A stretch of 49,306 bases of DNA, from the IMG/VR virus record IMGVR_UViG_3300042922_000785, positions 1 through 49,306 of that record. The stretch is one strand, 5' to 3'. The number at the start of each line of letters is the position of its first letter. The first letter of the stretch is position 1. The stretch is from a virus. The notes below the pieces were generated by a model. It was given only the letters and a program-made list of their open reading frames with translations, did not search any database and was not told where the DNA came from. Positions 18,410 through 49,258 of the stretch are shown one piece after another. A program made the position numbers and the translations under genes.

Positions 18410-19018
18410 TTGGCGACAAAGAAGAAGAAGTCTTCGTTCGGTGGATGGCTGATCGTCGGGCTTGTTGTCTTGATCTTTGGCCAAATCTTCAAGTCGGACG
18501 ACGTGCCGTCCTCGTCAACGAACTCCGCGATTACCGCGCCGGTCACGAGTTCAACTCAGGCCAGCACGGCAACCGAGCCGTCTCTTAGAGCTCCAGCAGC
18601 CCAGGTCTCGACCTCGCCCGCGAAGCAGACCGAAACTCGATACGTCACAGCGACATCGCTGAACGTTCGATCCGATCCAAGTTCCGTGGGCAAAGTGGTC
18701 GGCAAGATTCCCAGTGGCGATCAGATTGCGGTATTCGAAGCCCGAGATGGCTGGTTGTTGGTGCAATCCGCTTCAGCGGGCCGCGGATGGGTAAGCGAAC
18801 AATTCACGTCGAGGACTCGGCCGCAACCCGTATACCGCCCCCCTGCCCCTTTGGCGCAATCTGTTCCTGCTGCCGCCTCTGGGCAGTCGTGTTCGCCGCG
18901 CAGAACATGCGGACAGATCTCGAGCTGCTCCGCTGCCCAATGGTATCGGCGGAACTGTTCTTGGGGCGGCAGGCTAGATCGTGACAATGACGGAATAGCG
19001 TGCGAGTCGCTCTGCTAA
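18410..19018 (+). CDS. membrane-anchored SH3 and Excalibur-domain protein (cargo)
   Basis: 202 residues from a TTG at 18410 that follows GGAGG by 6 bases. A Lys-rich N terminus and one membrane helix (residues about 11-27, GGWLIVGLVVLIFGQIF) are followed by a Ser/Thr/Pro linker. Next comes a bacterial SH3 domain at 77-133 (TATSLNVRSDPSSVGKVVGK, GDQIAVFEARDGWLLV, GRGWVSEQF). Last is a C-terminal Excalibur-type domain (CSPRRTCGQISSC, then LDRDNDGIACESLC) with a DxDxDG calcium loop and paired cysteines. SH3 domains of this kind bind peptidoglycan; the Excalibur domain is known from surface nucleases and other exported proteins. It likely faces the periplasm. Plus strand within the minus-strand tail module, so separately promoted cargo. 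Confidence 0.8.
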   Translation: MATKKKKSSFGGWLIVGLVVLIFGQIFKSDDVPSSSTNSAITAPVTSSTQASTATEPSLRAPAAQVSTSPAKQTETRYVTATSLNVRSDPSSVGKVVGKIPSGDQIAVFEARDGWLLVQSASAGRGWVSEQFTSRTRPQPVYRPPAPLAQSVPAAASGQSCSPRRTCGQISSCSAAQWYRRNCSWGGRLDRDNDGIACESLC

Positions 19019-19100
19019 GCCCGTGATCGCTCAACTCCAGTGGCCTGGAAATGGTCTGACGAGCGGGTCAACTGTCCGAAAACAGATAGGAATCATAAAC

Positions 19101-19424
19101 ATGATATCTCGTTCGCTTACCTATGCTGCTGGCATCGCTGCAGCCATCATTCTTGTCGGGTGCACGGGCTCCGCAGTACCGCCATCAGCAACCGCATCAC
19201 CTCCGCTCGAAGATTGCGGCGCATCAGTTCTTAAGAGCAAGGTCGGGCAGCCTGTTACCGGTCAAACTGCGTCGGACGTTCGGGTTGGCGACGCACCGGT
19301 TCAGTCACATGGCGACGTGAGAGTGCTTGGTCCGAACGATGCTATGATCCAGAATTACAGCGAGGCGCGTCTGAACCTCGATGTTGACGCGGCCCGCAAT
19401 CTGGTCAGGCCGTGGTGTGGGTAG
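19101..19424 (+). CDS. I78-family peptidase inhibitor lipoprotein (cargo)
   Basis: 107 residues from the ATG at 19101 (AGGA 11 bases upstream). Signal ending with the lipobox ILVGC. The mature part has the I78 pattern: DCGASVLKSKVGQPV, then DVRVLGPNDAMIQNYSEARL, NLDVDAARNLVRPWCG. The paired first and last cysteines and the closing N-[IL]-x-[IV]-D-x-x-x-x-[IV]-x-R-x-x-CG are typical. Family members inhibit serine peptidases such as subtilisin-like enzymes (the founder is the fungal AIM inhibitor). Anchored in the envelope, it may protect the lysogen from proteases. Follows the SH3-Excalibur gene by 82 bp and may be co-transcribed with it. Confidence 0.8.
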   Translation: MISRSLTYAAGIAAAIILVGCTGSAVPPSATASPPLEDCGASVLKSKVGQPVTGQTASDVRVGDAPVQSHGDVRVLGPNDAMIQNYSEARLNLDVDAARNLVRPWCG

Positions 19425-20195: not shown

Positions 20196-20441
20196 ATGCA
20201 AGACTCTAGGAAGCACCCCCGCAAAACCGCGCGCATTCCAGTGACGGTCGTGTGGAATGGTGGGGCGGCACGCGCGGCGGGCTTGATCTTGGATAAATCT
20301 GAAACTGGGGTGCGCGTGCGCCTGAACGAAGCAGAAGTCATCGCCAACGACTGCTACATCCTTTTTCAGCGCCGGCTCGAGCCTTGTCGTGTCGTGTGGC
20401 AAGCCTCCCGTTCAGCAGGCTTGTTGTTCTTGGACGGATAA
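20196..20441 (+). CDS. single-domain PilZ protein (c-di-GMP receptor type, cargo)
   Basis: 81 residues, just one PilZ domain. Both c-di-GMP-binding motifs are present: RxxxR as R5-KHP-R9 in the N-terminal switch, and [D/N]xSxxG as DKSETG at 33-38, followed by the strand VRVRL. The remaining strands (VTVVWNGGAARAAGLIL; CRVVWQASRSAGLLFL) complete the barrel. Small PilZ proteins bind c-di-GMP and pass the signal to motility, exopolysaccharide or other partners. A second c-di-GMP gene, a diguanylate cyclase, lies at 28264 in the same prophage. Weak ribosome site (GACGGG). Confidence 0.8.
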   Translation: MQDSRKHPRKTARIPVTVVWNGGAARAAGLILDKSETGVRVRLNEAEVIANDCYILFQRRLEPCRVVWQASRSAGLLFLDG

Positions 20442-20488
20442 CCAGCTCGCTCAGTGGACCGGTACACGGGCAGCATATGTTGCCTGTC

Positions 20489-20899
20489 CTAGGCGGAAGC
20501 AATGATATCGTGCATGACTGGCGTTCCCGCCGGCGCAAGCGTGTTGCACCGTATGACTGTGAGTGCCCTGCCCCCTTCGTAAACGTCGCCGTTGAAGGCG
20601 CCATCAACCAGGATCGTGTCAGTGGTGGTCGGCGTGATGGTCAGGCCCAGCACCGACCCCAGGATCTGGGCATCACTCGACTTGATCAGCGTGCCGCCAA
20701 TGTCCCGCCCGGCGTCTTGCAGTTCAATAGGAAGCACCGCCACCTTGATGGCGTGATAGACTGTCACCTCACCGCCTGGCGTCCATGGATTTGGCCCGGG
20801 CTCGAATGTGGTGCGGGGAATAGCACCGATCTGCCCGAACTCGGCAATGAGTTCCTCAGCGTCGGCTTGGCTTTCGATGTAGTTGAACCTCTCAGCCAT
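20489..20899 (-). CDS. head-tail junction protein, putative
   Basis: 136 residues. Beta-rich with EVTVYHAIKVAVLPIELQDA and ILGSVLGLTITPTTTDTILV, GGRALTVIRC. Its start overlaps the stop of the connector gene (TGATG) and it is followed by the gp10-like gene, the place of the head-closure/stopper protein (gp16/gpFII-like). The assignment is from position; no sure family motif. Confidence 0.6.
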   Translation of the reverse strand: MAERFNYIESQADAEELIAEFGQIGAIPRTTFEPGPNPWTPGGEVTVYHAIKVAVLPIELQDAGRDIGGTLIKSSDAQILGSVLGLTITPTTTDTILVDGAFNGDVYEGGRALTVIRCNTLAPAGTPVMHDIIASA

Positions 20900-21402
20900 C
20901 AGAACCTCACCAGCGTTGTCACGGAAGTGACGCTTGGCGCCGCAACCAGCAGCTCGGCAATGATGCCGTCGATGATGGCGAACACTGGCCGCGCCGAAGC
21001 AGCATTGGCCGGAGTGGCGTATTCAAGCTCTTTCTCCAGCGGCCCGAGTTTCTTGCGCTCGCGCTTGATCGTGCCGTTTGGATCAAAGTCCGGGATAATC
21101 GAATTTGGTGCCGCGAGCTCGCGCGACGCCATTTCATATGTCGCGCGGATGATCGGCAACGGCACTTTGTCATCCGGGAATGCCTCGCCCCTATAAACCA
21201 CCCCGGCACGAGGCCAGAGAAGGTCTTGAGCAACAGTGGGCACGGTCCCGGAATACCGAGCGGCATAGAGTGCGTCCAGAGCTTGGGAGGCGCGCACAAG
21301 GGCAGCCAAGCGCAAATCGTCAGTCGATGCAGCCCATGCCGCATTCCCGCGCGCCTGGTGGTAGGCCAATGCGTCGTCTGGGGTTCCGTAGTGGTCGGGC
21401 AT
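20899..21402 (-). CDS. head-tail connector (adaptor) protein, DnaT-like family name
   Basis: 167 residues; ATG at 21402 after GAGAGGTG. Begins YGTPDDALAYHQARGNAAW and goes on DLRLAALVRASQALDALYAA, PRAGVVYRG, IIRATYEMASRELA. This is the family labelled DnaT-like ssDNA-binding in domain databases, which in phages stands in the adaptor position next to the capsid gene. A structural connector role is more likely than replication here because of the neighbours. Confidence 0.75.
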   Translation of the reverse strand: MPDHYGTPDDALAYHQARGNAAWAASTDDLRLAALVRASQALDALYAARYSGTVPTVAQDLLWPRAGVVYRGEAFPDDKVPLPIIRATYEMASRELAAPNSIIPDFDPNGTIKRERKKLGPLEKELEYATPANAASARPVFAIIDGIIAELLVAAPSVTSVTTLVRF

Positions 21403-21481
21403 GGATCACCTCTCCGGTACAGATGTTAACGGCGAGCACCTTCACACACGGAGGCTCGTTGAACGATTTTAGGAGGTGGGA

Positions 21482-21655
21482 ATGCCCAAGAACGATCAGG
21501 CTCAGGCCGATAAGCAGAAACAGGCCACCACGGCCCCCGTCGTCCAACAATTTGCGGCCGGCGGATCAGCCGTAGCGACCCCAGAAGTGCCGTACGACGT
21601 GGAGAAGGTACGAAACGGAAGCGTCAATCCCGCACCGAAGCCGGAGCAAGAATAG
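21482..21655 (+). CDS. 57-aa hydrophilic protein (cargo)
   Basis: ATG at 21482 with AGGAGGTGGGA just upstream, one of the best ribosome sites in the window. The product is Gln/Lys/Ala/Pro-rich (MPKNDQAQADKQKQATTAP, FAAGGSAVATPEV) and probably disordered. No family recognised. Plus strand, between two minus-strand head genes. Confidence 0.55.
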   Translation: MPKNDQAQADKQKQATTAPVVQQFAAGGSAVATPEVPYDVEKVRNGSVNPAPKPEQE

Positions 21656-21684
21656 CCGGTAGCCTAAGCTCCCGGCTGTTGGGA

Positions 21685-22260
21685 TTAAGCGCGACGCTTC
21701 AACTCGGCTTCGATAGCAGTGTTGGCTTCCTCGCCGTTGCTGATCGGCTGGTCAGAGAGCTTGGCCGCGAGCGAGCGGCGTTCCTGCCAGGTCAGGTCTT
21801 TCCAGTTGTCGGGAATGACGACCTGAGCTCCGTTGGCACCGTCACCACCCACCACCTGGTCGCCGATGATCGTCTGGGCACCAGGGATGATCGCCGTGCC
21901 CGCCTGTTCAGGCGTGGTTGCCGGTTGGCCCGTAGTCGGATCAGTGTTGCTGGCCTCGATGCCGATGCCGCCGGTGGCAGACACTTCGGCGTTGGGAGCG
22001 AAGTTCCCCTCGCTGTCCGCAAGCGGCCGAGCCGTGCCTTCTGGGTCGACCTTGGCGGGCTCAATGTTGTCCAGCGCTGCAGCTGAATGCTGCGACGCCT
22101 TCTCGGCTTGATCGGCAAGCTTTTCGAAAGCAGCAGCAAGCCGATCAGATGAGTTGCCGCCGGCTGCATTGGCCTTGGAGCGCAGGATCTGGGCACGGCT
22201 TTCGTCCCGGCGAGCGATGGCTTCGGCCAGCGCGGGATCGTCGTCATGGCGAGTGTCCAT
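21685..22260 (-). CDS. hypothetical protein next to capsid, 191 aa
   Basis: ATG at 22260 after GAGGTAAC. Acidic and Ala-rich with an N-terminal helix (ALAEAIARRDESRAQILRSK), a coiled coil (LAAAFEKLADQAEKASQHSA), a Gly-rich disordered middle (TTPEQAGTAIIPGAQTIIG) and a helical end (WQERRSLAAKLSDQPISNGE). Position directly after the capsid gene suggests a virion or head-completion role. The C-terminal ending resembles small domains found in phage virion proteins, but no family is claimed. Confidence 0.6.
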   Translation of the reverse strand: MDTRHDDDPALAEAIARRDESRAQILRSKANAAGGNSSDRLAAAFEKLADQAEKASQHSAAALDNIEPAKVDPEGTARPLADSEGNFAPNAEVSATGGIGIEASNTDPTTGQPATTPEQAGTAIIPGAQTIIGDQVVGGDGANGAQVVIPDNWKDLTWQERRSLAAKLSDQPISNGEEANTAIEAELKRRA

Positions 22261-22315
22261 GTTGTTACCTCGAGTTCAATGAATGGGATGATGGGCGGGG
22301 CCGTGGCCCCTGCCC

Positions 22316-23320
22316 TTAGCCATTGGTAGTGACAGCAACCATGCGGATCAGCTTGGGGTCGTACTTGCGCGTCCAGTTCGCGCCATTTGCAAGTTCCGCA
22401 TCGGTTACGCCCGAGGCGTTCGCGGGATCGCCGGTGAAAGCGACGCCACGCGGGTGCATGACCCAGTGCCGGCGGTACCAGACGGTCTCGACGCCTTCAC
22501 CGTTGCCGGCCGCCGCTACGCTGTCGATCTCGACCGGCTTCTTCGGGCCACCGTCGCCAGTCGCTTCGGCGTAGCCAATGGCGCCATTGCCGAACAGGTA
22601 CGAGGTGTACTCGAAGCCGGAAGTGGCACCGGCGACGCGCGGGCACTGGTCGGACACGAACACGTCCTTGTCGTCCCAACGGACGAAGTCGAGGCCCGTG
22701 ACCGGGTCCTTGCCAAACACGATCGCCCGCTGCGCCCGCAGGTTGTAGAACACGCGCGAATGCATCAGCACGGCAGAGAGCGTCTGGCCGTACTCCCCCA
22801 GCAGAGCATAGGCGTTGGCCGCCACCTCGGCATCGAGATTGACGGGCGTGACCGCGCCATCTGCCGATGCGACATCGAGCACGTTGCCGGCCATGCCAGG
22901 CGAAGCAAACACGCCGGCCATCTGCTGACCCATGATGCGCTGCTCTTCACGAACCCAGTACTCGGCAATGAGCTTGGCAACGGCGTCGAGCGGGTCTTCG
23001 GCCAACATGGACGCTACCAGGTTGGCGCTCTGCCAACCATTGTTGCGCCGGATCTTGCGCGCCATGTCCTGGCCCTGCGTCAGCTTGTTGGGCGTGGCGC
23101 TCTGGGCCGGGTCGTCGGTCGAAACGTTGGAATTGCCGGTTAGATCGTTCCAGAAGGGCATCTGGACGAGGTCGCCTGGGCCGTTGGCAAACTGCTGGAG
23201 CTGGGCATCAGTGGAGACGATCGGCGAATTGCGAATGCGCGAAAGCTGCGCAATCCGCTGAATGGTCGTGGGGAGAAAGAGCGGGCCATAGATGACGTCG
23301 CTCAGGCGAGTGGTAGCCAT
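22316..23320 (-). CDS. major capsid protein
   Basis: 334 residues. Order and content fit a HK97-fold capsid: N arm with DVIYGPLFLPTTIQRIAQLS, E-loop-like QMPFWNDLTGNSNVSTDDPA, spine helix DAVAKLIAEYWVREEQRIMG, then AVLMHSRVFYNLRAQRAIVF and the closing HPRGVAFTGDPANASG with NWTRKYDPKLIRMVAV. Similar capsids (often annotated major capsid protein E-like or plain coat protein) follow a scaffold gene, as here. Ribosome site AAGGAT 9 bases upstream of ATG. Confidence 0.85.
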   Translation of the reverse strand: MATTRLSDVIYGPLFLPTTIQRIAQLSRIRNSPIVSTDAQLQQFANGPGDLVQMPFWNDLTGNSNVSTDDPAQSATPNKLTQGQDMARKIRRNNGWQSANLVASMLAEDPLDAVAKLIAEYWVREEQRIMGQQMAGVFASPGMAGNVLDVASADGAVTPVNLDAEVAANAYALLGEYGQTLSAVLMHSRVFYNLRAQRAIVFGKDPVTGLDFVRWDDKDVFVSDQCPRVAGATSGFEYTSYLFGNGAIGYAEATGDGGPKKPVEIDSVAAAGNGEGVETVWYRRHWVMHPRGVAFTGDPANASGVTDAELANGANWTRKYDPKLIRMVAVTTNG

Positions 23321-23427
23321 GAGGGAAATCCTTCAGTGAGGGATGGAGTTGGGGAGGATTGTTCAGCCATCCCATCGGGCCCGGCTGGCGTGCGCCATCG
23401 GCGCGGTAGATCAGGGAGGCTGCGCGC

Positions 23428-24216
23428 CTACCAGTTTGGAGTGACGCCGGCGGCCTGCGCCATCTGGCGGGCCTTGGCGTCGTTTGAAGCAATGAGTTCT
23501 TGCTGCTTTGTCAGGTTGGGGCGCTTGCCGTTGCTGGTGTCCCACGGGTTGTCAGTGAAGCGATTGCCCTGCCCGCCCGAGGCATCGCCGCCAGTTGGCT
23601 TCTTGACGTAGATCTTGCCCTCGTCAGAGCCCGACCAGTCTTTCACGTAGCTAGCCAGCGGCATTGGACCCATGTCCGTTTCTACGGTGGCTTTGAACGT
23701 GCCATCTTCCTCGACCAGCTTCACGGCGCCCTTGCTCTTGAGCAGCGCCATAGCGCCGGGCTTGAATGCGGGGTCAACGCCGGCTTCATCAAGGGCCTTG
23801 GACAGGCCGTCATCGATCGTGGCCTTGGTCACGGCGCCTTCCAGAGTGGCAATGCGCTCGTCCTTCTTGGCGAGTTCGCCCTGGTGCTTGCGCTCGAGCT
23901 GCTGGCGCACCTGGGCAACCTGCTCGTCGGTCTTGGCGGGAGCCTTGCCTTCTGCCTGCGCCTGCAGGGCCTCATAGGCGTCGGCGTCAAAATCGTCGGG
24001 CAAGCCTTCGAGCCGGGCCTTGGCCGCAGCCAGATCCGTCTGCAGCGTCTTGTTCGCGGTCTTTTGCCGCTCGTGCGCGGTCTTGAGGTTCACGACGGCG
24101 GGGTGCGCGTCGATCCCTTCGATGTCGAGGACGAACTTGCCGTCGACCTCCTTGTATTCGCTCTTCAGCGCGTCTGGCACATCGTCCAGATTGTCGAGAA
24201 TAGTCTTGAGGGCCAT
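23428..24216 (-). CDS. capsid scaffold protein
   Basis: 262 residues from the ATG at 24216 (AGGAAA upstream); the frame is open further but the extra part is not protein-like. After MALKTILDNLDDVPDALKSE the chain is a long coiled coil (residues about 45-130: LKTAHERQKTANKTLQTDLA, VRQQLERKHQGELAKKDERI), then a C-terminal domain with VKLVEEDGTFKATVETDMG and a basic end. This is the layout of phage scaffolding proteins (GPO/minor structural gp20-type), which fill the procapsid and leave during packaging. Directly upstream of the capsid gene. Confidence 0.8.
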   Translation of the reverse strand: MALKTILDNLDDVPDALKSEYKEVDGKFVLDIEGIDAHPAVVNLKTAHERQKTANKTLQTDLAAAKARLEGLPDDFDADAYEALQAQAEGKAPAKTDEQVAQVRQQLERKHQGELAKKDERIATLEGAVTKATIDDGLSKALDEAGVDPAFKPGAMALLKSKGAVKLVEEDGTFKATVETDMGPMPLASYVKDWSGSDEGKIYVKKPTGGDASGGQGNRFTDNPWDTSNGKRPNLTKQQELIASNDAKARQMAQAAGVTPNW

Positions 24217-24262
24217 CGGCCATTTCCTGTGGTTGCGCCTGCGTCGCAGACGTGACAAAGAA

Positions 24263-24279
24263 CCCGCCGCTTTGGCGGG
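24263..24279 (-). terminator. hairpin upstream of the scaffold gene
   Basis: CCCGCC, loop GCTTT, GGCGGG (6-bp GC stem). On the minus strand it is followed by TTCTTT. It could end minus-strand transcription arriving from the portal side before the scaffold operon begins. Confidence 0.4.
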
Positions 24280-24291
24280 GGTGGAAGAGCT

Positions 24292-24489
24292 ATGAAACTG
24301 CGGATTTATCCGCCCGAGGGGTTCAGCGAGCAGAGCTCGTATCCCCACCTGAGGCACTTGGTGCGGACCCGGACAACTAGCATCCACCTGCATCGGCCTC
24401 GATACGGCTTCATTGAAGCTGGAGGGCCTGTACCGGAGTTGGTGAGGTTCAAGTTTGTTCTACGCCGCTACGGCTACCGGCTGGGCTGA
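24292..24489 (+). CDS. hypothetical protein, 65 aa (cargo)
   Basis: ATG at 24292 with GGAAGAG 2-3 bases closer than usual but well matched. The product is basic with many aromatic residues (MKLRIYPPEGFSEQSSYPH; RPRYGFIEAGGPVPELVRFK). It ends before the hairpin at 24510-24538 and sits on the plus strand like the other cargo genes. No family recognised; coding status is moderately supported. Confidence 0.4.
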   Translation: MKLRIYPPEGFSEQSSYPHLRHLVRTRTTSIHLHRPRYGFIEAGGPVPELVRFKFVLRRYGYRLG

Positions 24490-24509
24490 ATTCCGCAGGC
24501 TTGGCATGG

Positions 24510-24538
24510 AAAAGCCCGCCTCGGAATGCCGGGCGGGC
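24510..24538 (-). terminator. intrinsic terminator (minus strand), strong stem
   Basis: On plus: AAAA, GCCCGCC, T bulge, CGG, loop AATG, CCG, GGCGGGC. On the minus strand the stem is followed by TTTT. It would stop minus-strand transcripts that have run antisense through the DUF4238-type gene, and the stem could also end the 65-aa gene on plus. Confidence 0.6.
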
Positions 24539-24579
24539 GGAATCGCCTATAGTGTCCCCACCACCTGGGAGCGGCATAG

Positions 24580-25430
24580 ATGGCACCATTGCCGAAGCGG
24601 CATCATTACGTCCCGGAGTTTCTACTCAACAACTTCCGAGCACAGGACAACTTGGTGCGCCTATTTGATAAAAAAGACGCTGCAAGCGGAGTTGTCGCAA
24701 GGAACCCTACTAAGGTTCTTTTCGAACCGCACTTGTACACGCGAACGCACAACGACGGACACCGAGACGCCCAGTTAGAGGCCGCTTATGGGCGCCTAGA
24801 AGATGCCTCGGCACCCATAGTGAAGCGCATTGTCGATTCTGCCCGAGCTAAACGCCTCCCGCAACTAAGCGCTTGGGAGAAGGCCGTTTGGGACCAATTC
24901 CTGTATAACCAGTGGCGACGTGTTCCGGAGCTACACGCTACTTTGTTCACAAGAGAGTTCTTCGACAAACTAAGGGAGGATGCAGTCGCAAGCTTCGAAA
25001 GAAATTATCGCTCCATCAATGATCAAGAGCGGGCATGGCTGCGGATGACGCGGAACTGGAGCGCATGAATCGCAACGCAATGATCGGCTCGTTAGCCAGT
25101 TCCGGTGAGAACGTCCTGAAGGTGCTTGGGGGACGAGGCTTGGCGATCATCCGCACCACAAAGCTCACCAAGAGCTTTGTTCTTGGAAGTCGCCCTGTTG
25201 TGAAGCTAACCCCGCCAGGGACAACCGAGTTGTCGGATCATTCAGTAGAAATGTGGCTGCCGGTTGCTCCAGACGTTGCTGTCGGAGTTGGCAGAGAGCC
25301 AGGTGAAGAGCTGCTCTTCGATGCCCCAGATCGTTTCGTACGAGGTCTTAACGAAGCCGTTTTGGAGCAAAGTTCCATGTTGGTAGCGCGCTCAGAAGAC
25401 CTACTAAAATCCCTTTGCAGACTCCGATGA
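24580..25430 (+). pseudogene. DUF4238-family gene interrupted by a frameshift (cargo)
   Basis: The first part (24580-25068) begins MAPLPKRHHYVPEFLLNNF, the hallmark RHHYVP..LL..F of DUF4238, and runs through WEKAVWDQFLYNQWRRVPEL. The second part, in another frame (from about 25032 to 25430), continues with ELERMNRNAMIGSLASSGEN and VLKVLGGRGLAIIRTTK, then a strand-rich end with HSVEMWLPVAPDVAVGVG, as the C-terminal half of this family does. Joining the frames near 25030 gives a smooth family-length product of about 280 residues; a one-base loss in the GCGGG run there would explain it. Alternatively two overlapping proteins are made. DUF4238 proteins have no proven function; some occur in defence-like settings. 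Plus strand between minus-strand head genes. Confidence 0.65.
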
Positions 25431-25709
25431 TTACCCTATCAGCTTCGTGACCTTACCCCTGCTCATGCAGTAAGTGCACACCCAAGCTTTAGTCCCGCCG
25501 ACCTTCTTGCCGGCTGGGCTCCTGCGTGGCGCCAGCGTCACCTCAGTGACCATGCTGGTGGCCACGCCGGTATCTTTCTCACACTGGTAGCAAACAACCT
25601 GTTCGGCTTGGTCAAGCGCTGTCCGCCGATGGCTCCTCTTCGGAGCATTGTCTGGCAAGGCGCCGTCAACAACGGCTAGATGGGAGCGGTCGCGGAAGTC
25701 GTCTTTCAT
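25431..25709 (-). CDS. small zinc-ribbon protein
   Basis: 92 residues. Two CxxC pairs 40 residues apart, CYQCEKDTG and CTYCMSRGKV, with a hydrophobic strand between, form a likely zinc ribbon. The N-terminal 40 residues are basic and polar. It ends one base after the DUF4238-type gene on the opposite strand (tail to tail) and follows the minor head gene by 7 bp. May act in head assembly or bind DNA; unknown. Confidence 0.6.
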   Translation of the reverse strand: MKDDFRDRSHLAVVDGALPDNAPKRSHRRTALDQAEQVVCYQCEKDTGVATSMVTEVTLAPRRSPAGKKVGGTKAWVCTYCMSRGKVTKLIG

Positions 25710-25716
25710 GCCCCAA

Positions 25717-26790
25717 CTATGCTGCTAGACCAGCTTTTGCGAAAGCCTGATCTTCTAGACGCCGCAACTTGTCTAGCGTCAGTTCATCGCCAGCCCGGTT
25801 GGTGAAACGATCGACCGGCAAGCCACCCTTGCGGAACAATGCTGAGCGGGTAGGCCCCAGAGCTTCATCCTGCACACCAGCCGGCTGCCTCTTGAGCCAT
25901 GCCCCATACGTTTCGGTCGCGCTCACCTGGCCGTTCATGCTGGCCCGTGTCTTTGGGGGCAAATCAGCGATGTCAAACCCCAGCTCGCGCCATGACTTGG
26001 TCACCGGCACCCGCACGCACCGACAGCCAATGTGCGCCGGCGTCTGCGTTCCCCTACCGAGCTCGAACTTCTGCCCGTCCACGCCCATGCACTGAGGGCA
26101 TGTGCGCGTGTCCAAGGTCGACACCCACTGCTCTGAAGCAATGAGGTCTGAGTTGGCCTTATAGAGCTCGTCCCGCGCCGCGGTGGTGGTGTGTGCCACA
26201 GCAGTGCGCACCATAGCTTCTGCGCCTCGCCGACCGATGTTCATGATGCCATCTGTGTAGCGCAGGGCCTTGCTGCCGCGCACACGGCGAACAATCTGAT
26301 CCACCGTTTCGCCTTGCACTACGCCGAGGCGAATTGCATCGCGCAGGCGCCGGGCTTTGGCTTCGTCCAGTTCAGCAACCCACTCCTTGAGCAACCGACC
26401 CTGAAACGGCCTGGCCGTAACCGCGGCCTTCAGCATCTCCACTGTTGGCGAAACGAAGTCCCACGCGATCGGCAGCACCGAGCCGATAAGCCGACGCTGG
26501 AACTCAGCCTCGTAAGCCGCCACCGCAACGAGCTCTTTTCTCAGCTCCTTACCGACCGAGACATGGGCGTCATGGTTGATCTTGCGGATGGCGTCGAGCA
26601 GCTTCTCTAGCCGCACCGAGGTGAATGAGCCCTCCAGCGTTGCGCTCCGAACTAGGAGCTTTGAAACGATCTCCTCATCGGCACGGTCCAGCAACGGGAG
26701 CAGCTTGGCGAGAACGCCGGAAGCCAGCCGCTGCACCTGCACCTGGTGCCGAAGCTCCAGGTCGCGGATTACGTCATTCGTCGTCTGCAT
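25717..26790 (-). CDS. phage minor head protein (SPP1 gp7 / Mu gpF-like)
   Basis: 357 residues. The family core lies at about 160-275: RDAIRLGVVQGETVDQIVRR, MVRTAVAHTTTAARDELYKA, then WVSTLDTRTCPQCMGVDGQ and PAHIGCRCVRVP. The T-x-D-x-R-T-C-x-x-C and the HxxCRC signature are diagnostic of the gp7/gpF head morphogenesis family, which is packaged in few copies and helps DNA exit. Its start overlaps the portal gene end by 17 bp. Long basic helices make up the N-terminal half. Confidence 0.85.
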   Translation of the reverse strand: MQTTNDVIRDLELRHQVQVQRLASGVLAKLLPLLDRADEEIVSKLLVRSATLEGSFTSVRLEKLLDAIRKINHDAHVSVGKELRKELVAVAAYEAEFQRRLIGSVLPIAWDFVSPTVEMLKAAVTARPFQGRLLKEWVAELDEAKARRLRDAIRLGVVQGETVDQIVRRVRGSKALRYTDGIMNIGRRGAEAMVRTAVAHTTTAARDELYKANSDLIASEQWVSTLDTRTCPQCMGVDGQKFELGRGTQTPAHIGCRCVRVPVTKSWRELGFDIADLPPKTRASMNGQVSATETYGAWLKRQPAGVQDEALGPTRSALFRKGGLPVDRFTNRAGDELTLDKLRRLEDQAFAKAGLAA

Positions 26791-28159
26791 TGTCGTTGCC
26801 AGTGAGGGACGGATTGGCGAGCCCTGCGCCTTCAGCTTCGATCAGCGCTTGTTCTTCCTCAAATGACCGCTCGGCACTGGCGATCTCTCCACGCTGCAGG
26901 TTCTCGTAGACCGTCTGCTTCGATAGCGCGCCGCTCTGCCAAACCGACACGAGCTGAGCTGCCTCCTGCGGCGTGAGCGAGCTATCGACAAAGGACAGGT
27001 TCGGCTTGACCGTCACCTCTTCTGGATTGTGCCCGATCATCACCGCTATGTGCCGCAGCGCCTTTTCTAGGCCCTGAGCGCTGGACTGAGCGATGCTGGT
27101 CAACGTCGCCGTCTCGGCAGCGAACCGGATGCGCAGCGCGTCTCCGCTCTCCGCTGTCTTATTCTCGCTGCTGTTGAACATCCTGGCGCCTGATTGCGCC
27201 GCGTTCTGGCGTTCGTCCTGCATAGCGACCCGGTGAGCCGCAATGCCGGTGCCCGCCGGGCCGACATACTTCACATCAGGCGTACCCTGCTGGTCGCCTT
27301 GCTTGATCGCGATGACGGCTCCTGCGCCGACGGCTGTTGGTGCATCGCCATTGATGACAACCAATGTCTCTTGGCCGGTCATGAACAGCTGCCAGCGGTA
27401 GTCCGCCGAAAGTTGGTACAGCGCGATCGCCGCGCGGGCGACACCCATCAGAGGAGGCAATTCAGGAGGCAACGACAGGTCGCGAGCCCCAATCACTACC
27501 AGAGGGATGCCAGTCAGCGCGGCGCCACCGCGACCGGTCGGACCGATCGCCTCACCAGGTGCTCGCTGCGTCCCCGTATAGGTCTGGACCGTGTACCGGC
27601 CATCCTTGAGTTCGAGCACGCGATAACGCTGCTGTTGCTCCCAACGGAAGCCCTCCCGACGCAAGCCGCTCTCGTCCAGAACGAACATGGACCGGTCATC
27701 GGACCAATTGATCAGTGCCTCGGCGCTATAGCCAGCCAGCCATGGAAGGTCCGAACCCTCCGAGGCAGCGTCGGCCAACAATGAATACCGACCCGTGGTC
27801 AGCAATTCCGCAGTGATGCGGCGATGCAGCGCCTCGAGCGGCAGCCCATCCTTCGTCGCTTTCTCCCACAGCGGCTCCATCGCCGCTGGCATTTCGATCT
27901 GGGCCTCGGTCCGGTGGATCACACCCACCATACCGTGGATCGTGGGGTGCACAATCTCCGGGAACTGCGCCCGCTTCTGATAGGCCGCATAGAGCACCCT
28001 GCCCCCATCCGGCTGCGCCTTGAAACCGCTTGGCTGGGGAAGATATTCCTCGCCAGCGGCCTTTACATCTGCTTCACCGCCGCTGGTGTCCCGCATCAGC
28101 TGCCACAGATCGGCGCGGGCAATGTACTCGGGGTGCTTGGTGTCGACAGCATCGGTCAT
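26774..28159 (-). CDS. portal protein (DUF4055 family)
   Basis: 461 residues; ATG at 28159 after GGAGAGCG. N-terminal ADLWQLMRDTSGGEADVKAA and YLPQPSGFKAQPDGGRVLYA, then GMVGVIHRTEAQIEMPA and LLTTGRYSLLADAASEGSDL. The later part includes PLMGVARAAIALYQLSADYR, the crown helices AQSSAQGLEKALRHIAVMIG and the end DSSLTPQEAAQLVSVWQSGA. This matches the DUF4055 portal family of Podo/Siphoviruses. The dodecameric ring is the DNA entry gate. Neighbours (terminase, minor head) agree. Confidence 0.85.
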   Translation of the reverse strand: MTDAVDTKHPEYIARADLWQLMRDTSGGEADVKAAGEEYLPQPSGFKAQPDGGRVLYAAYQKRAQFPEIVHPTIHGMVGVIHRTEAQIEMPAAMEPLWEKATKDGLPLEALHRRITAELLTTGRYSLLADAASEGSDLPWLAGYSAEALINWSDDRSMFVLDESGLRREGFRWEQQQRYRVLELKDGRYTVQTYTGTQRAPGEAIGPTGRGGAALTGIPLVVIGARDLSLPPELPPLMGVARAAIALYQLSADYRWQLFMTGQETLVVINGDAPTAVGAGAVIAIKQGDQQGTPDVKYVGPAGTGIAAHRVAMQDERQNAAQSGARMFNSSENKTAESGDALRIRFAAETATLTSIAQSSAQGLEKALRHIAVMIGHNPEEVTVKPNLSFVDSSLTPQEAAQLVSVWQSGALSKQTVYENLQRGEIASAERSFEEEQALIEAEGAGLANPSLTGNDNADDE

Positions 28160-28263
28160 TGGGGCACGCTCTCCGGGGCCATTGTCGATCGCTTTTTAAC
28201 AATGCCATTGAGCCGGGCTTAGAGCCCCGCATGGCACAGCCTCGCCCTCGCAGGGAGTTGAGA

Positions 28264-29007
28264 GTGCACAGCGTTGTTTTAAAATCCGCCTTGGTGACCA
28301 TAGGAGTGATCGCTGTTGGTCAGGTATTGTCGTTCTCCGGTCGAATGGCGACAGGTCAGGAGTTCACGCTCTACGTGTTCATTATGAACAGCGTCCTCCC
28401 GCTGGTTACAGCAATGCCGGCCTCACTACTGATCTTCTGGCAGCAGCATCGACTTTCACTTGCCCACAGCGCGCTCTTGAAGGCTCATCAGGAGCTTGCG
28501 ATCAAAGCTGCTCGCGATCACCTGACCGGACTTCTGAATCGCGGAACCTTCCTTGATCGTGTCGGCCTCCACGACGGCGAGCCTGGCGTTCTGCTGATTG
28601 TGGACGCGGACAACTTCAAGAAGATCAACGACAGTTTCGGTCATGCTGAAGGCGACGCAGCCCTCCGGCTAATCGCTGCCGCTATTCGGTCGCCTTTGAC
28701 GGACCGCAGTCTAGCGGGTAGACTTGGCGGCGAAGAGTTTGCAGTGTTCGTGCCCGGCGCTTCGTCAAGCGAGGGTCTTCCCCTCGCCGAGGCGATACGT
28801 TCTGCGGTTGCCGCAGTCTCGTTCTATCCAGCTCCTGGAACAAAGTATCCCCTGAGTGTCAGCATTGGGGTCGCGGTGAAAGCAAGTGGCGGCGATTTAC
28901 TGCAGACCTTCAGGCAAGCGGACGCAAACCTCTACCAAGCCAAGATCAATGGGCGTAATGCGGTGGTCGGCTCGGGACCGAAACCCCAGTTGACTGTTGT
29001 TCAATAG
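28264..29007 (+). CDS. membrane-bound GGDEF diguanylate cyclase (cargo)
   Basis: 247 residues from a GTG at 28264 with AGGGAG 6-7 bases upstream; an ATG at 28231 lacks a ribosome site. Two membrane helices (residues about 5-25 and 37-59) lead through a short helix to a full GGDEF domain. It has DHLTGLLNR at 85-93, the metal-binding LIVDADNFKKINDSFGH (Asp114), the active loop GRLGGEEF (GGEEF at 155-159), then SVSIGVA and ADANLYQAKINGRN. All catalytic motifs are intact, so it should make c-di-GMP from two GTP. The inhibitory RxxD site expected at 146-149 reads TDRS, so product inhibition is probably missing. Plus strand between the portal and terminase genes, ending 7 bp inside the terminase gene. 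Confidence 0.9.
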   Translation: MHSVVLKSALVTIGVIAVGQVLSFSGRMATGQEFTLYVFIMNSVLPLVTAMPASLLIFWQQHRLSLAHSALLKAHQELAIKAARDHLTGLLNRGTFLDRVGLHDGEPGVLLIVDADNFKKINDSFGHAEGDAALRLIAAAIRSPLTDRSLAGRLGGEEFAVFVPGASSSEGLPLAEAIRSAVAAVSFYPAPGTKYPLSVSIGVAVKASGGDLLQTFRQADANLYQAKINGRNAVVGSGPKPQLTVVQ

Positions 29008-30569
29008 AGCCCGGCTACCGTCGTTGACGTGGTCTGCGACTCTCGATTGCCCACCAGTCGCCCAAACGCCCCAGATGTGGCGTCTACCTGATCTTTGAAC
29101 GAACCGCCTGGAAACAGGCACAGCTCATCGAGGTAGGCGTCATTCCATGATCCCTGCACGAGATAGACGTTGCCGGCTTCACACTGAGACGAGAACGGCT
29201 CCGCTCTGGTCACCTTGTCGCCAGTCTCCGGATCGGCCTTTACAGTCCATCCTGCGAGCATCGAGACATAGTCCTTCGCCTGCACCTTGCCGGCTTGGCC
29301 CGGATCCTGCGGCAGACTGATTAGCACGCCGGTACCATCGGTTTCGGCTGTACCTTTGATCAGCTTCCTGATCGCATTCCCTTCATCCTGGGTCGTCACC
29401 ACATGGCCGACCACATAGGAGCCGTCTGGGGCCTTCCCCAGCTTTACGCCGGCCGTTCTGGCGGCTGTTGCTGACTTCGTTGCAGCCAAGTCCCAATGGC
29501 GCACCCAGCGGGTACCGGGCGGTGCTTGGCGGATGATCTTGCCTTCAAACCAATGCCGCTTGAACAACCCACCTTCGCGAGCCGTCGGCCGCTGCTGATA
29601 CTGCCCTGCATAGCCGTAAGAGCCCTTCACCACCTTGAGCCCCTCAACAGCCTCTCGGCTGAATCGCTCCGGCAGCAATAGCTCCCCGTCTGTTGTCCGG
29701 GGATCGACGAATCCGATGCGGGTCGGCTCGGCAGGATCGATCATCCGACCGCTGGTCTTGTACGGCTTCGGGTCATACTCCATGGGCAACGTGAGGTGCA
29801 CATAGGGCAGCCCGAGCCGGAGGATCGTTCCTGCCACATCGTTCTCGTGCAAGCGCTGCATGATTACGACGATGGCCGATCGGTCCAGGTCATTGAGCCG
29901 GTCAGATATGGACTCGCGGAAGATGCGCACCGCGTTGGCGCGCTCCACGTCGCTCTCCGCGGTCTCCGTTGAGTGCGGGTCATCGATAATCACCCGATCA
30001 CCGCGACCGCCTGTCATCGAGGCGAATGGCCTGCCCTCACGTCCACCCGAGCGGGTGTTGTCGAACTTGCCCTTGGCATTTTGGTCCGGCGACATCTTCA
30101 CGGTGGGCCAGAGCGCCTGGTACCACTCGCTTTCAACTAGGCGGCGCATCTTGGTGTTGTCGCGCATAACGTTGTCCTGCGAGTAGGACGACGTCAGGTA
30201 TCGCAGGTGCGGCATCTCTGCCGGTCCCCACTCCCATGCGGGCCAGAACACGCTGTGCAGCAGGGACTTCATCAAGCCTGGCGGGCAGTTAGTCAGCAAT
30301 CGGGTGATCTGCCCGCGTGTAACAGCCTCCAGGTGATCTGCCATGGCCTGCAGAGGCCATCCCCAGACCAGATGAGCTTTTGGCTCTAGGATCGGCCAGG
30401 CACACTCCACGAAGCCTGCGAGGGTCTTGCACTTCTCTCGGATGAGTTCGGCGTTCAGCTCGACGTCCCGGCGCTGCCTTTCGACTTCACGCCTCTGCCG
30501 CTCCGCTCTGATCTCCGCCAGCGAGGGCAAGCGGACCGAGGATCGACTCAAGATGATCGAGCTGTTCAT
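29001..30569 (-). CDS. terL: terminase large subunit
   Basis: 522 residues. ATPase: a variant Walker A, TNCPPGLMKSLL at about 93-104, with SSYSQDNVMRD, and a Walker B DRVIIDDPHS near 195. Nuclease: VRHWDLAATKS with the first metal Asp near 355, GVLISLPQDPGQAGK near 420, and a late Asp in FKDQVDATSGAFG near 500. These fit the phage packaging motor that cuts and pumps DNA. The reading frame overlaps the small subunit by 83 bp, so the true start could be a little further in, though no better start codon is seen. Adjacent portal and small subunit genes agree. Confidence 0.9.
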   Translation of the reverse strand: MNSSIILSRSSVRLPSLAEIRAERQRREVERQRRDVELNAELIREKCKTLAGFVECAWPILEPKAHLVWGWPLQAMADHLEAVTRGQITRLLTNCPPGLMKSLLHSVFWPAWEWGPAEMPHLRYLTSSYSQDNVMRDNTKMRRLVESEWYQALWPTVKMSPDQNAKGKFDNTRSGGREGRPFASMTGGRGDRVIIDDPHSTETAESDVERANAVRIFRESISDRLNDLDRSAIVVIMQRLHENDVAGTILRLGLPYVHLTLPMEYDPKPYKTSGRMIDPAEPTRIGFVDPRTTDGELLLPERFSREAVEGLKVVKGSYGYAGQYQQRPTAREGGLFKRHWFEGKIIRQAPPGTRWVRHWDLAATKSATAARTAGVKLGKAPDGSYVVGHVVTTQDEGNAIRKLIKGTAETDGTGVLISLPQDPGQAGKVQAKDYVSMLAGWTVKADPETGDKVTRAEPFSSQCEAGNVYLVQGSWNDAYLDELCLFPGGSFKDQVDATSGAFGRLVGNRESQTTSTTVAGLY

Positions 30570-46263: not shown

Positions 46264-46706
46264 TGGAGAACTTTCGGCTGGAGCCCATTCGCTCGCCCAA
46301 GTACCTCAATGGTGCCCAGGGTGAAACCTGCAAGCTGCGGTTTGTCGGCGTGTGCCACGGCGGCATCGAGACAACCGTGGCCTGCCATGTGCACGATGTC
46401 GGCTTCGGCATGGCTCGAAAGGCCGACGACATATCCATCATTGATGGCTGCGCCTGGTGCCACGCCTTCTTGGACCATGGCTGGGTTGGCAAGATCAGCC
46501 GAACGGTGCTGCTCGAGCACATCATCCGCGGCCTGCAGGAGACGCTCAGGAATCGTGTGGAGCGCGGCCTGGTGCCCAAGCCCACAGAGCTATTCAAGCC
46601 CCGCCGGAAGCGAACAACCGGGCCGCGCAAGACACCGAAGGACCGCACCGCTATCCACAGTCATCGCGAGTGGCCGACCGGCCGCAGCTTCAATCCCGAC
46701 CCATGA
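46263..46706 (+). CDS. DUF1364 HNH-like phage protein
   Basis: 147 residues. IRSPKYLNGAQGETCKLRFV, GVCHGGIETTVACHVHDVGF, GMARKADDISIIDGCAWCHA: the order RS.KYL..A.G..C.., H....G...KADD....C..CH is that of DUF1364, a zinc-binding, HNH-related group related to phage recombination nucleases. C-terminal part is basic and disordered. In operon with NinB. Confidence 0.75.
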   Translation: MENFRLEPIRSPKYLNGAQGETCKLRFVGVCHGGIETTVACHVHDVGFGMARKADDISIIDGCAWCHAFLDHGWVGKISRTVLLEHIIRGLQETLRNRVERGLVPKPTELFKPRRKRTTGPRKTPKDRTAIHSHREWPTGRSFNPDP

Positions 46707-46728
46707 ACCGCAAGAGCGAGCCCGCCAC

Positions 46729-47193
46729 ATGACTGCCACCGCCCTAGAACTCACCACCCAGATCGTCGCCAGCTATGTCGCCAACAACCAGGTGCAGGCC
46801 GAGCAAGTGCCAGCCATCATCCACAGCGTTTACGTAGCGCTGAACACGGTCGAAACCGCAGCTGCCGCGCCTGCGCCCCGGGAGCCGCTGAAGCCCGCTG
46901 TTCCGCTCGCCAAGTCCGTCACCGCCGACTTCATCATCTGCCTGGAAGACGGCAAGAAGTTCAAGTCGCTCAAGCGCCACCTGCGGACGGCCTACAACAT
47001 GACCCCGGAGGAATACCGCGCCAAGTGGGCCAGATCGTTACCCGATGGTAGCCCCGAACTATTCGGCAAAGCGCTCACAGCTAGCGAAGGACAACGGCCT
47101 TGGCCTCAGTCCGATGAAGAAGGCAGCATAGACATGAGCCAGATCCGAAAAGCTAATGTGGAGCCGGCATGCTGCTCGGAGATGACGCCATGA
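46729..47193 (+). CDS. MucR/Ros-family regulator with frameshifted C-terminal tail
   Basis: 154 residues as sequenced. Residues 1-100 are a normal MucR protein: QIVASYVANNQVQAEQVPAI, then KSVTADFIICLEDGKKFKSL, KRHLRTAYNMTPEEYRAKW. Cys71, Asp74 and His84 are in the Ros zinc-ligand positions, while the fourth position is Tyr, as in zinc-free Ml-type relatives. After Trp100 the frame breaks: the expected tail is in the +1 frame (PDRYPMVAPNYSAKRSQLAK, ending MKKAA, stop 47129-47131). A loss of 2 or 5 bases near 47029 explains it. The actual reading adds about 54 unrelated residues. The DNA-binding arm that follows the zinc site in MucR is thus lost. Location in the early operon suggests a phage regulator of host genes. 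Confidence 0.8.
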   Translation: MTATALELTTQIVASYVANNQVQAEQVPAIIHSVYVALNTVETAAAAPAPREPLKPAVPLAKSVTADFIICLEDGKKFKSLKRHLRTAYNMTPEEYRAKWARSLPDGSPELFGKALTASEGQRPWPQSDEEGSIDMSQIRKANVEPACCSEMTP

Positions 47194-48092: not shown

Positions 48093-49130
48093 GTGAGCAC
48101 GATCAAGCTTCGCTACATCAAGAGCTACACGGACAGGCTGGGGACAAAGCGCCACTACTTCAACAAGCGAGGCGCTGCTCGGACCGCCCTGCCCGGCCTG
48201 CCTGGGTCTGCCGAGTTCATGGCGGTCTACCAGGACTGCCTCAACAGCGTGCCCGCGGAACCTGCTCGGCCGAAGGTGAGCAAGCCGGCGAAAGGCAGCA
48301 TGTCCGACCTGATCGCGCGCTATTACGCTTCGGCGGCCTTCAAGAACCTCAGCCCGCTAACGCAGTCGAGCTACCGGAACGAGATCAACAAGATCGACAC
48401 TGCCCACGGCAACAAGCCGGTGGAGCTTCTCGACCGCAAGGCCGTGAAGCTGTTGCTGGCTAAGAAGGCCGAGACACCAGGCGCCGCCAACAAACTGCTT
48501 CGCACTCTCCGCATGCTGATGAAGTTCGCTGTGGATGAGGAGATGCGCCGCGACGATCCCACGGCTGGCGTGAAGTCGCTCAAAGTAGCCGGTGATGGCT
48601 TTGTGGCATGGTCAGAGGCAGACATCGAGAAATTCGAGGCGAAGCACCCGATCGGCTCAAAAGCGCGACTAGCGTTCGCCTTATGCCTCTACACCGCGCA
48701 GCGACGCGGCGATGTGATTCGCATGGGCCGGCAGCACATTCGCGGCTCTATGATCTCGGTTCGGCAGCAGAAGACCGGCACCTATCTCGAGGTGCCCATC
48801 CATCCCGATCTGGCAGCGATCTTGGAGACGGTGCCCAAGGACAACATGACCCTGCTTTTGTCCGAAGCAGGCGGACCATTCAAGCCGGCGAGCTTCGGGA
48901 ACTGGTTCGGCGATCGGTGCCGCGAGGCCGGGCTTGGGAAGGGCTATAATGCCCATGGATTGCGCAAGGCGGGCGCTCGACGCCTGGCCGAGGCCGGCTG
49001 TACCGCGCACGAGATAATGTCCATCACGGGACACCAGACCATTGCCGAAGTGGAGCGCTATACGCGCTCTGCAAATCAGAAGATTATGGCTGTGGATGGC
49101 ATGGCCAAATTGACCCGACGTTCTAACTAG
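48093..49130 (+). CDS. int: tyrosine-recombinase integrase
   Basis: 345 residues from a GTG at 48093. N-terminal arm-binding and SAM-like core-binding parts (residues about 65-155), then the catalytic domain: AQRRGDVIRM with Arg204 or 205, QQKTGTYLEV with Lys227, AHGLRKAGARRLAEAG with His288 and Arg291, ITGHQTI with His314 and the nucleophile Tyr323 in ERYTRSAN. It inserts the phage DNA into the 3' end of the neighbouring tRNA-Val gene. The stop codon is followed by a short AT-rich stretch with the repeat GTTCTAAC. Confidence 0.9.
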   Translation: MSTIKLRYIKSYTDRLGTKRHYFNKRGAARTALPGLPGSAEFMAVYQDCLNSVPAEPARPKVSKPAKGSMSDLIARYYASAAFKNLSPLTQSSYRNEINKIDTAHGNKPVELLDRKAVKLLLAKKAETPGAANKLLRTLRMLMKFAVDEEMRRDDPTAGVKSLKVAGDGFVAWSEADIEKFEAKHPIGSKARLAFALCLYTAQRRGDVIRMGRQHIRGSMISVRQQKTGTYLEVPIHPDLAAILETVPKDNMTLLLSEAGGPFKPASFGNWFGDRCREAGLGKGYNAHGLRKAGARRLAEAGCTAHEIMSITGHQTIAEVERYTRSANQKIMAVDGMAKLTRRSN

Positions 49131-49182: not shown

Positions 49183-49258
49183 TGGTGGGCGATGACGGAC
49201 TCGAACCGCCGACATCCTCGGTGTAAACGAGGCGCTCTACCAACTGAGCTAATCGCCC
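49183..49258 (-). tRNA. tRNA-Val (anticodon TAC)
   Basis: A complete cloverleaf of 76 bases with encoded CCA. Acceptor GGGCGAT pairs with ATCGCCC, the D arm contains AGCTCAGTTGGTAGAGC, the anticodon arm is CCTCG-TTTACAC-CGAGG with TAC at the centre of the loop, and the T arm is CGGCGGTTCGAGTCCGTC. The 3' end faces the integrase gene, so the prophage most likely entered here and rebuilt the 3' end. To the right, 49259-49306, only flanking DNA with no gene is seen. Confidence 0.95.

Follow-up and report, generated by a model that had tools for sequence, protein, structure and literature searches.

Several diguanylate cyclases are known as passengers of mobile elements. DgcK and DgcL (from SXT/R391 ICEs) and Dgc137 (from island VPII) alter biofilm and motility, and loss of VPII lowered phage resistance (PMC10672970). 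DgcX of E. coli O104:H4 and its relatives is located next to lambdoid prophages and, it is believed, hitchhikes by specialized transduction (PMC4287979). The PilZ/PilB surface pathway is also a target of temperate-phage genes: Pseudomonas phages carry Tip, Aqs1, and Zip, some of them with superinfection exclusion (PMC11656802).

The window analyzed here (the whole stretch of DNA, 49,306 nt) is a prophage that carries genes for both a GGDEF protein, predicted to be a cyclase, and a PilZ protein, predicted to be a c-di-GMP receptor. Like DgcK, DgcL, and Dgc137, the phage cyclase is cargo of a mobile element; those genes lie on conjugative elements or islands and not on phages, and the accessible part of the paper reports no receptor gene (PMC10672970). 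As with DgcX, a cyclase gene has spread with prophages (PMC4287979), but whereas DgcX lies beside them, the Devosia phage cyclase is encoded within the structural module, and the phage has a PilZ gene as well. Tip, Aqs1, and Zip are inhibitors that bind PilB or PilZ and, unlike the genes here, are neither PilZ-domain proteins nor cyclases (PMC11656802). Similar in position are two Methylobacterium phage or prophage loci with a related terminase (L054:11701-12843 and L144:11806-12948), in which a GGDEF gene likewise lies on the opposite strand between the terminase and portal genes. Their proteins look unrelated, with a distant sequence and a longer, differently built N-terminal part, and the L054 record has no PilZ. 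The terminase-portal junction has taken up GGDEF genes on at least two occasions.

Cyclases on mobile elements are known, and a PilZ moron beside one was not found elsewhere in the collections searched. In the open-access literature searched, no paper was found that describes a cyclase and a PilZ-domain gene in one phage. The first-pass annotation had considered a separate maker and receptor in one prophage to be undescribed; within these collections and this literature that holds for the pair, while phage- and prophage-associated cyclases were known already. Cyclases on ICEs, on islands, and beside prophages are known to alter biofilm, motility, and phage resistance. Here a predicted effector is carried as well, and a lysogen could therefore gain a new response to c-di-GMP, beyond more c-di-GMP itself. 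Both genes are small and intact, which makes it feasible to test directly whether lysogens use c-di-GMP for surface change and for exclusion of other phages.

Two cargo genes in a prophage structural module

The virus record that forms the window contains integrase, repressor, terminase, portal, capsid, and tape measure genes. It is a prophage of a Devosia-type host, adjoining tRNA-Val and lon. An identical copy (100%) is present in a Devosia MAG (G001), divided between contigs C86 and C179; lon lies beyond the right end of the window in the same contig, and tRNA-Val lies between the integrase and lon (Table 1). This position supports a Devosia-type host, provided that the binning of the MAG is correct. 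No repeat of the tRNA end (attachment repeat) was found in the first 8 kb of the window, so the left end of the prophage is either outside the window or unrecognized. PADLOC returned nothing relevant in the prophage.

Also inside the prophage is a gene for a ROS/MUCR-type regulator (46309-47193; Pfam E 2e-34). Because MucR governs exopolysaccharide and motility in rhizobia, this gene is a possible second regulator of the host surface.

Table 1. Prophage features discussed in the text, with positions in the window
Feature	Position	Strand	Evidence
Stand-alone PilZ protein, 81 aa, predicted c-di-GMP receptor; moron adjoining head-closure gene	20196..20441	+	RxxxR, DxSxxG, Pfam PilZ 21.4 bits, 13/13 family members PilZ, codon-position pattern
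Head-closure protein, right border of PilZ slot	20489..20899	-	phrog_161 E 4e-14
Portal protein, left border of GGDEF slot	26774..28159	-	phrog_145 E 5e-109
GGDEF protein with two membrane helices, predicted diguanylate cyclase; moron flanked by portal and large terminase genes	28264..29007	+	Pfam GGDEF, TIGR00254, PleD alignment, hydropathy, codon-position pattern
Large terminase, right border of GGDEF slot; 3′ end overlaps GGDEF gene end by 7 bases	29001..30569	-	phrog_38 E 9e-70
Prophage integrase	48093..49130	+	phrog_1 E 2e-42
tRNA-Val(tac), presumed integration site, beside integrase	49183..49258	-	ARAGORN, Rfam tRNA; lon farther out

The gene map bears out the earlier observation that the GGDEF and PilZ genes both run against the structural module of the prophage: They lie on the + strand inside a minus-strand head-tail module, 7.8 kb apart and in separate cargo slots. 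In related phages the terminase-portal gap holds other cargo, a small Excalibur protein in one (L008) and a GNAT-like protein in another (L083). Both are extra genes on the other strand that are absent or replaced in relatives, as is typical of morons, and both are intact; we interpret them as moron-type cargo of a temperate phage.

Further cargo on the + strand encodes SH3-Excalibur, I78 inhibitor, DUF4238, and zinc-ribbon proteins. Beside the PilZ slot (18458-19424, + strand) are the genes of an SH3-Excalibur protein that is secreted and of a lipoprotein of the I78 peptidase-inhibitor type, and a DUF4238 moron that matches just part of the DUF4238 profile lies among the structural genes (24580-25068, + strand).

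Properties of the predicted cyclase and receptor

The GGDEF protein (247 aa) has a GTG start at 28264 with GGGAG directly upstream. It matches the Pfam GGDEF family with an E-value of 2e-33 (115.9 bits; cut-off 23.8) and NCBIfam TIGR00254 with an E-value of 3.8e-36. Aligned with PleD (1w25), it retains the substrate and metal (GTP) residues: DADNFKKINDSFGH (DADNFKKIND), GGEEF, and AKxxGRN. By its GG[DE]EF signature and these residues the protein appears to be of the catalytically competent type, and cyclase activity is predicted. Hydropathy places membrane segments at ~4-22 and ~38-58 with a short loop between them and without a sensor domain; the predicted structure is poor (pLDDT 47).

The RxxD primary inhibitory site is common in diguanylate cyclases but not required. 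At its position in the PleD alignment the phage protein has TDRS (TxxS), and the I-site is therefore absent. The initial description of a two-helix membrane enzyme with catalytic motifs and without RxxD is thus correct, but the word "uninhibited" overread it: RxxD is also missing from the closest chromosomal homologs, and its absence does not prove high activity of the phage cyclase.

Both binding motifs claimed for the stand-alone PilZ protein are present, RKHPR (RxxxR) at residue 5 and DKSETG (DxSxxG; pattern [DN]xSxxG) at residue 33, although its own match to Pfam PilZ (E 3.2e-4) scores slightly under the cut-off of 22.5 bits and stops at profile position 83 of 102. In its Devosia family, all 13 tested members match PilZ exclusively (best 4e-8), and RxxxR does not vary in the family alignment. 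The single-sequence structure model has six strands (pLDDT 62). With this model, Foldseek placed the PilZ structures of BcsA, PlzA, and Alg44 near the top, none of them significant (no E-value <0.07), a result that is compatible with a PilZ fold without proving it. The protein is a predicted c-di-GMP receptor.

Relative to chromosomal homologs, the differences by codon position are 69/56/151 in the GGDEF gene and 33/23/58 in the PilZ gene; synonymous sites are nearly saturated with changes, and amino acids have changed far less. Such a pattern speaks against ORFs that arose by chance or genes that died long ago. Compared with the chromosomal Devosia genes closest to them (65% identity for GGDEF, 57% for PilZ), both genes show purifying selection, in a comparison that cannot separate selection in the phage from selection in the donor. 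Three promoter-like sites were found, no more than the 2.7 expected by chance.

Possible roles in the lysogen

On balance, we favor the reading that two host-derived morons were acquired separately by a Devosia prophage and would be used in lysogenic conversion, with no dedicated wiring required. Both genes would be expressed from the prophage. The cyclase would be seated in the membrane, dimerize via its helical linker, and make c-di-GMP without product inhibition at the primary I-site. It would raise c-di-GMP in the lysogen, leading to less motility and favoring polysaccharide or adhesion, and the altered surface would in turn alter phage adsorption. The PilZ protein would be one more effector that reads the c-di-GMP pool, whatever enzyme fills it. 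In most Devosia genomes the GGDEF matches number 13 to 34, small partial assemblies having fewer, and the PilZ matches one to seven; the MAG with the prophage (partial, 2.5 Mb) has 13 GGDEF matches, the phage gene counted. With many GGDEF proteins already in the host, the PilZ protein would not have to rely on the cyclase of the phage. Weighing against the favored reading are the chance-level count of promoter-like sites, the PilZ score under the Pfam cut-off, and the absence of both genes from related phages, which gives no sign of a long-term benefit to the phage.

It is unlikely, but a case can be made, that the genes are transient hitchhikers, picked up recently from a host and carried unused. 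The case rests on their distribution. We compared 159 loci with a related terminase, one of them the phage under study (L093), and phmmer found neither this cyclase nor this PilZ in the 158 others (PilZ matches elsewhere were at chance level), though L054 and L144 gave the different GGDEF noted above; since many of these loci are fragments, such absences are weak evidence. A Devosia prophage with a 90% identical capsid protein (in G007) has neither gene in the stretch read, and 50 terminase-related virus records searched whole have no GGDEF above the cut-off and no PilZ. Carriage by a single phage lineage would fit recent and unused cargo. Against this, both frames are intact and keep all functional residues, although even the nearest relatives known are only ~65% and ~57% identical. 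Selection may nevertheless have acted in the donor, and sampling may have missed the true one.

Separately acquired conversion genes also have to be weighed against a dedicated phage circuit, in which a local c-di-GMP pool made by the cyclase is read by the phage's own PilZ and a surface structure used by other phages is blocked (superinfection exclusion). We regard this as rather unlikely. It is suggested by the presence of both genes in one prophage: with ~24 GGDEF and four PilZ genes per genome, an assumed 4000 genes, and approximately nine cargo genes, random capture of both has a chance of ~1 in 2000, which is notable for a single phage but a rough figure for a window chosen post hoc, when many other pathway pairs would have been noticed too. 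The host chromosomes offer a further argument. In three Devosia genomes (G046, G047, and G062; loci L248:9433-10625, L249:9554-10787, and L335:9041-10274) an 82-aa PilZ gene is divergent to the gene of a two-helix cyclase of ~246 aa, a combination much like that of the phage, and these cyclases group with the phage cyclase (tree support 88/98, long branches). Hosts therefore do put such genes together, and the three loci are possible host cyclase-receptor pairs. However, these genes are adjacent and chromosomal, and their PilZ proteins are only ~28-37% identical to the phage protein, whereas the phage genes are far apart in different slots.

The nearest relatives of the two phage genes are likewise unlinked. 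The nearest cyclases (65%) are in Devosia genomes G067 and G068, in a chromosomal setting that includes a Ku-like gene and a chemoreceptor; for PilZ, the nearest genes (57% and 53%) are chromosomal in G065 and G044. With the closest relatives in different genomes, capture as a pair is not indicated. No other phage in the loci and records searched has both as separate genes, and with only one distinct lineage the test of joint retention has low power. The first-pass annotation had proposed a maker and receptor that together set the lysogen surface. A joint effect on that surface is plausible, both genes being intact moron-type cargo and cyclases of mobile elements being known to alter biofilm, motility, and phage resistance (PMC10672970). 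The idea of a unit does less well, given the distance between the genes, their unlinked relatives, and the lack of either gene in related phages; coupling of cyclase and PilZ in a dedicated circuit is possible but unproven. It is distinctly unlikely that the temperate phage has its own small c-di-GMP circuit, in which a cyclase lacking the primary inhibitory site works with a dedicated PilZ receptor to alter the lysogen surface and keep out competing phages.

Some PilZ proteins are known not to bind c-di-GMP, and the phage protein might instead attach to a partner in the host and serve a surface machine as adaptor or decoy. Its shortness and its score under the Pfam cut-off would agree with such a role. 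Phages do act on PilZ pathways, and Zip of phage JBD26 binds PilZ (PMC11656802). The presence of both ligand motifs, with RxxxR invariant in the family, speaks against an adaptor or decoy, and we consider it very unlikely. Capture of a ready-made host pair is countered by the closest cyclases and closest PilZ genes lying unlinked in different genomes.

GGDEF and PilZ genes in other viral and Devosia records

It is not unusual for viral contigs to carry GGDEF genes: a pattern search with a tblastn check gave 315 stretches, some of them likely host flanks. Among 50 GGDEF-bearing virus records, one (L270) has PilZ, as a single fused PilZ-PAS-GGDEF protein, which rules it out as a second phage with separate cyclase and PilZ genes. 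Pattern scans of IMG/VR (P0001, alignment A1, and another Devosia PilZ), which are insensitive to distant PilZ proteins, found no other phage PilZ. The PilZ hits in INPHARED were RecA/UvsX fragments, with no phage PilZ there, and no PHROG was found for PilZ. Some of the GGDEF hits in INPHARED stem from host DNA, H9 being E. coli chromosome; the records of phiAX1 and Microcystis MaAM05 are annotated as phage.

Two Devosia loci resemble parts of the arrangement. In G007 a PilZ gene lies ~0.7 kb from a GGDEF gene, but we rejected it as a host pair: An rpe-like gene lies between them, and the cyclase is only 43% identical. In G023 (C24:521841-525132; L346/L347) a decayed relative of the phage, with a fragmented capsid gene, lies on the strand opposite to a PilZ gene ~2.2 kb away that has 34% identity and an internal stop and may or may not have been phage cargo. 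Many Devosia genomes (L202, L207, L208, L210, L213, L216, and others) have two small membrane GGDEF genes in tandem, often with RxxD in one and often with none in the other.
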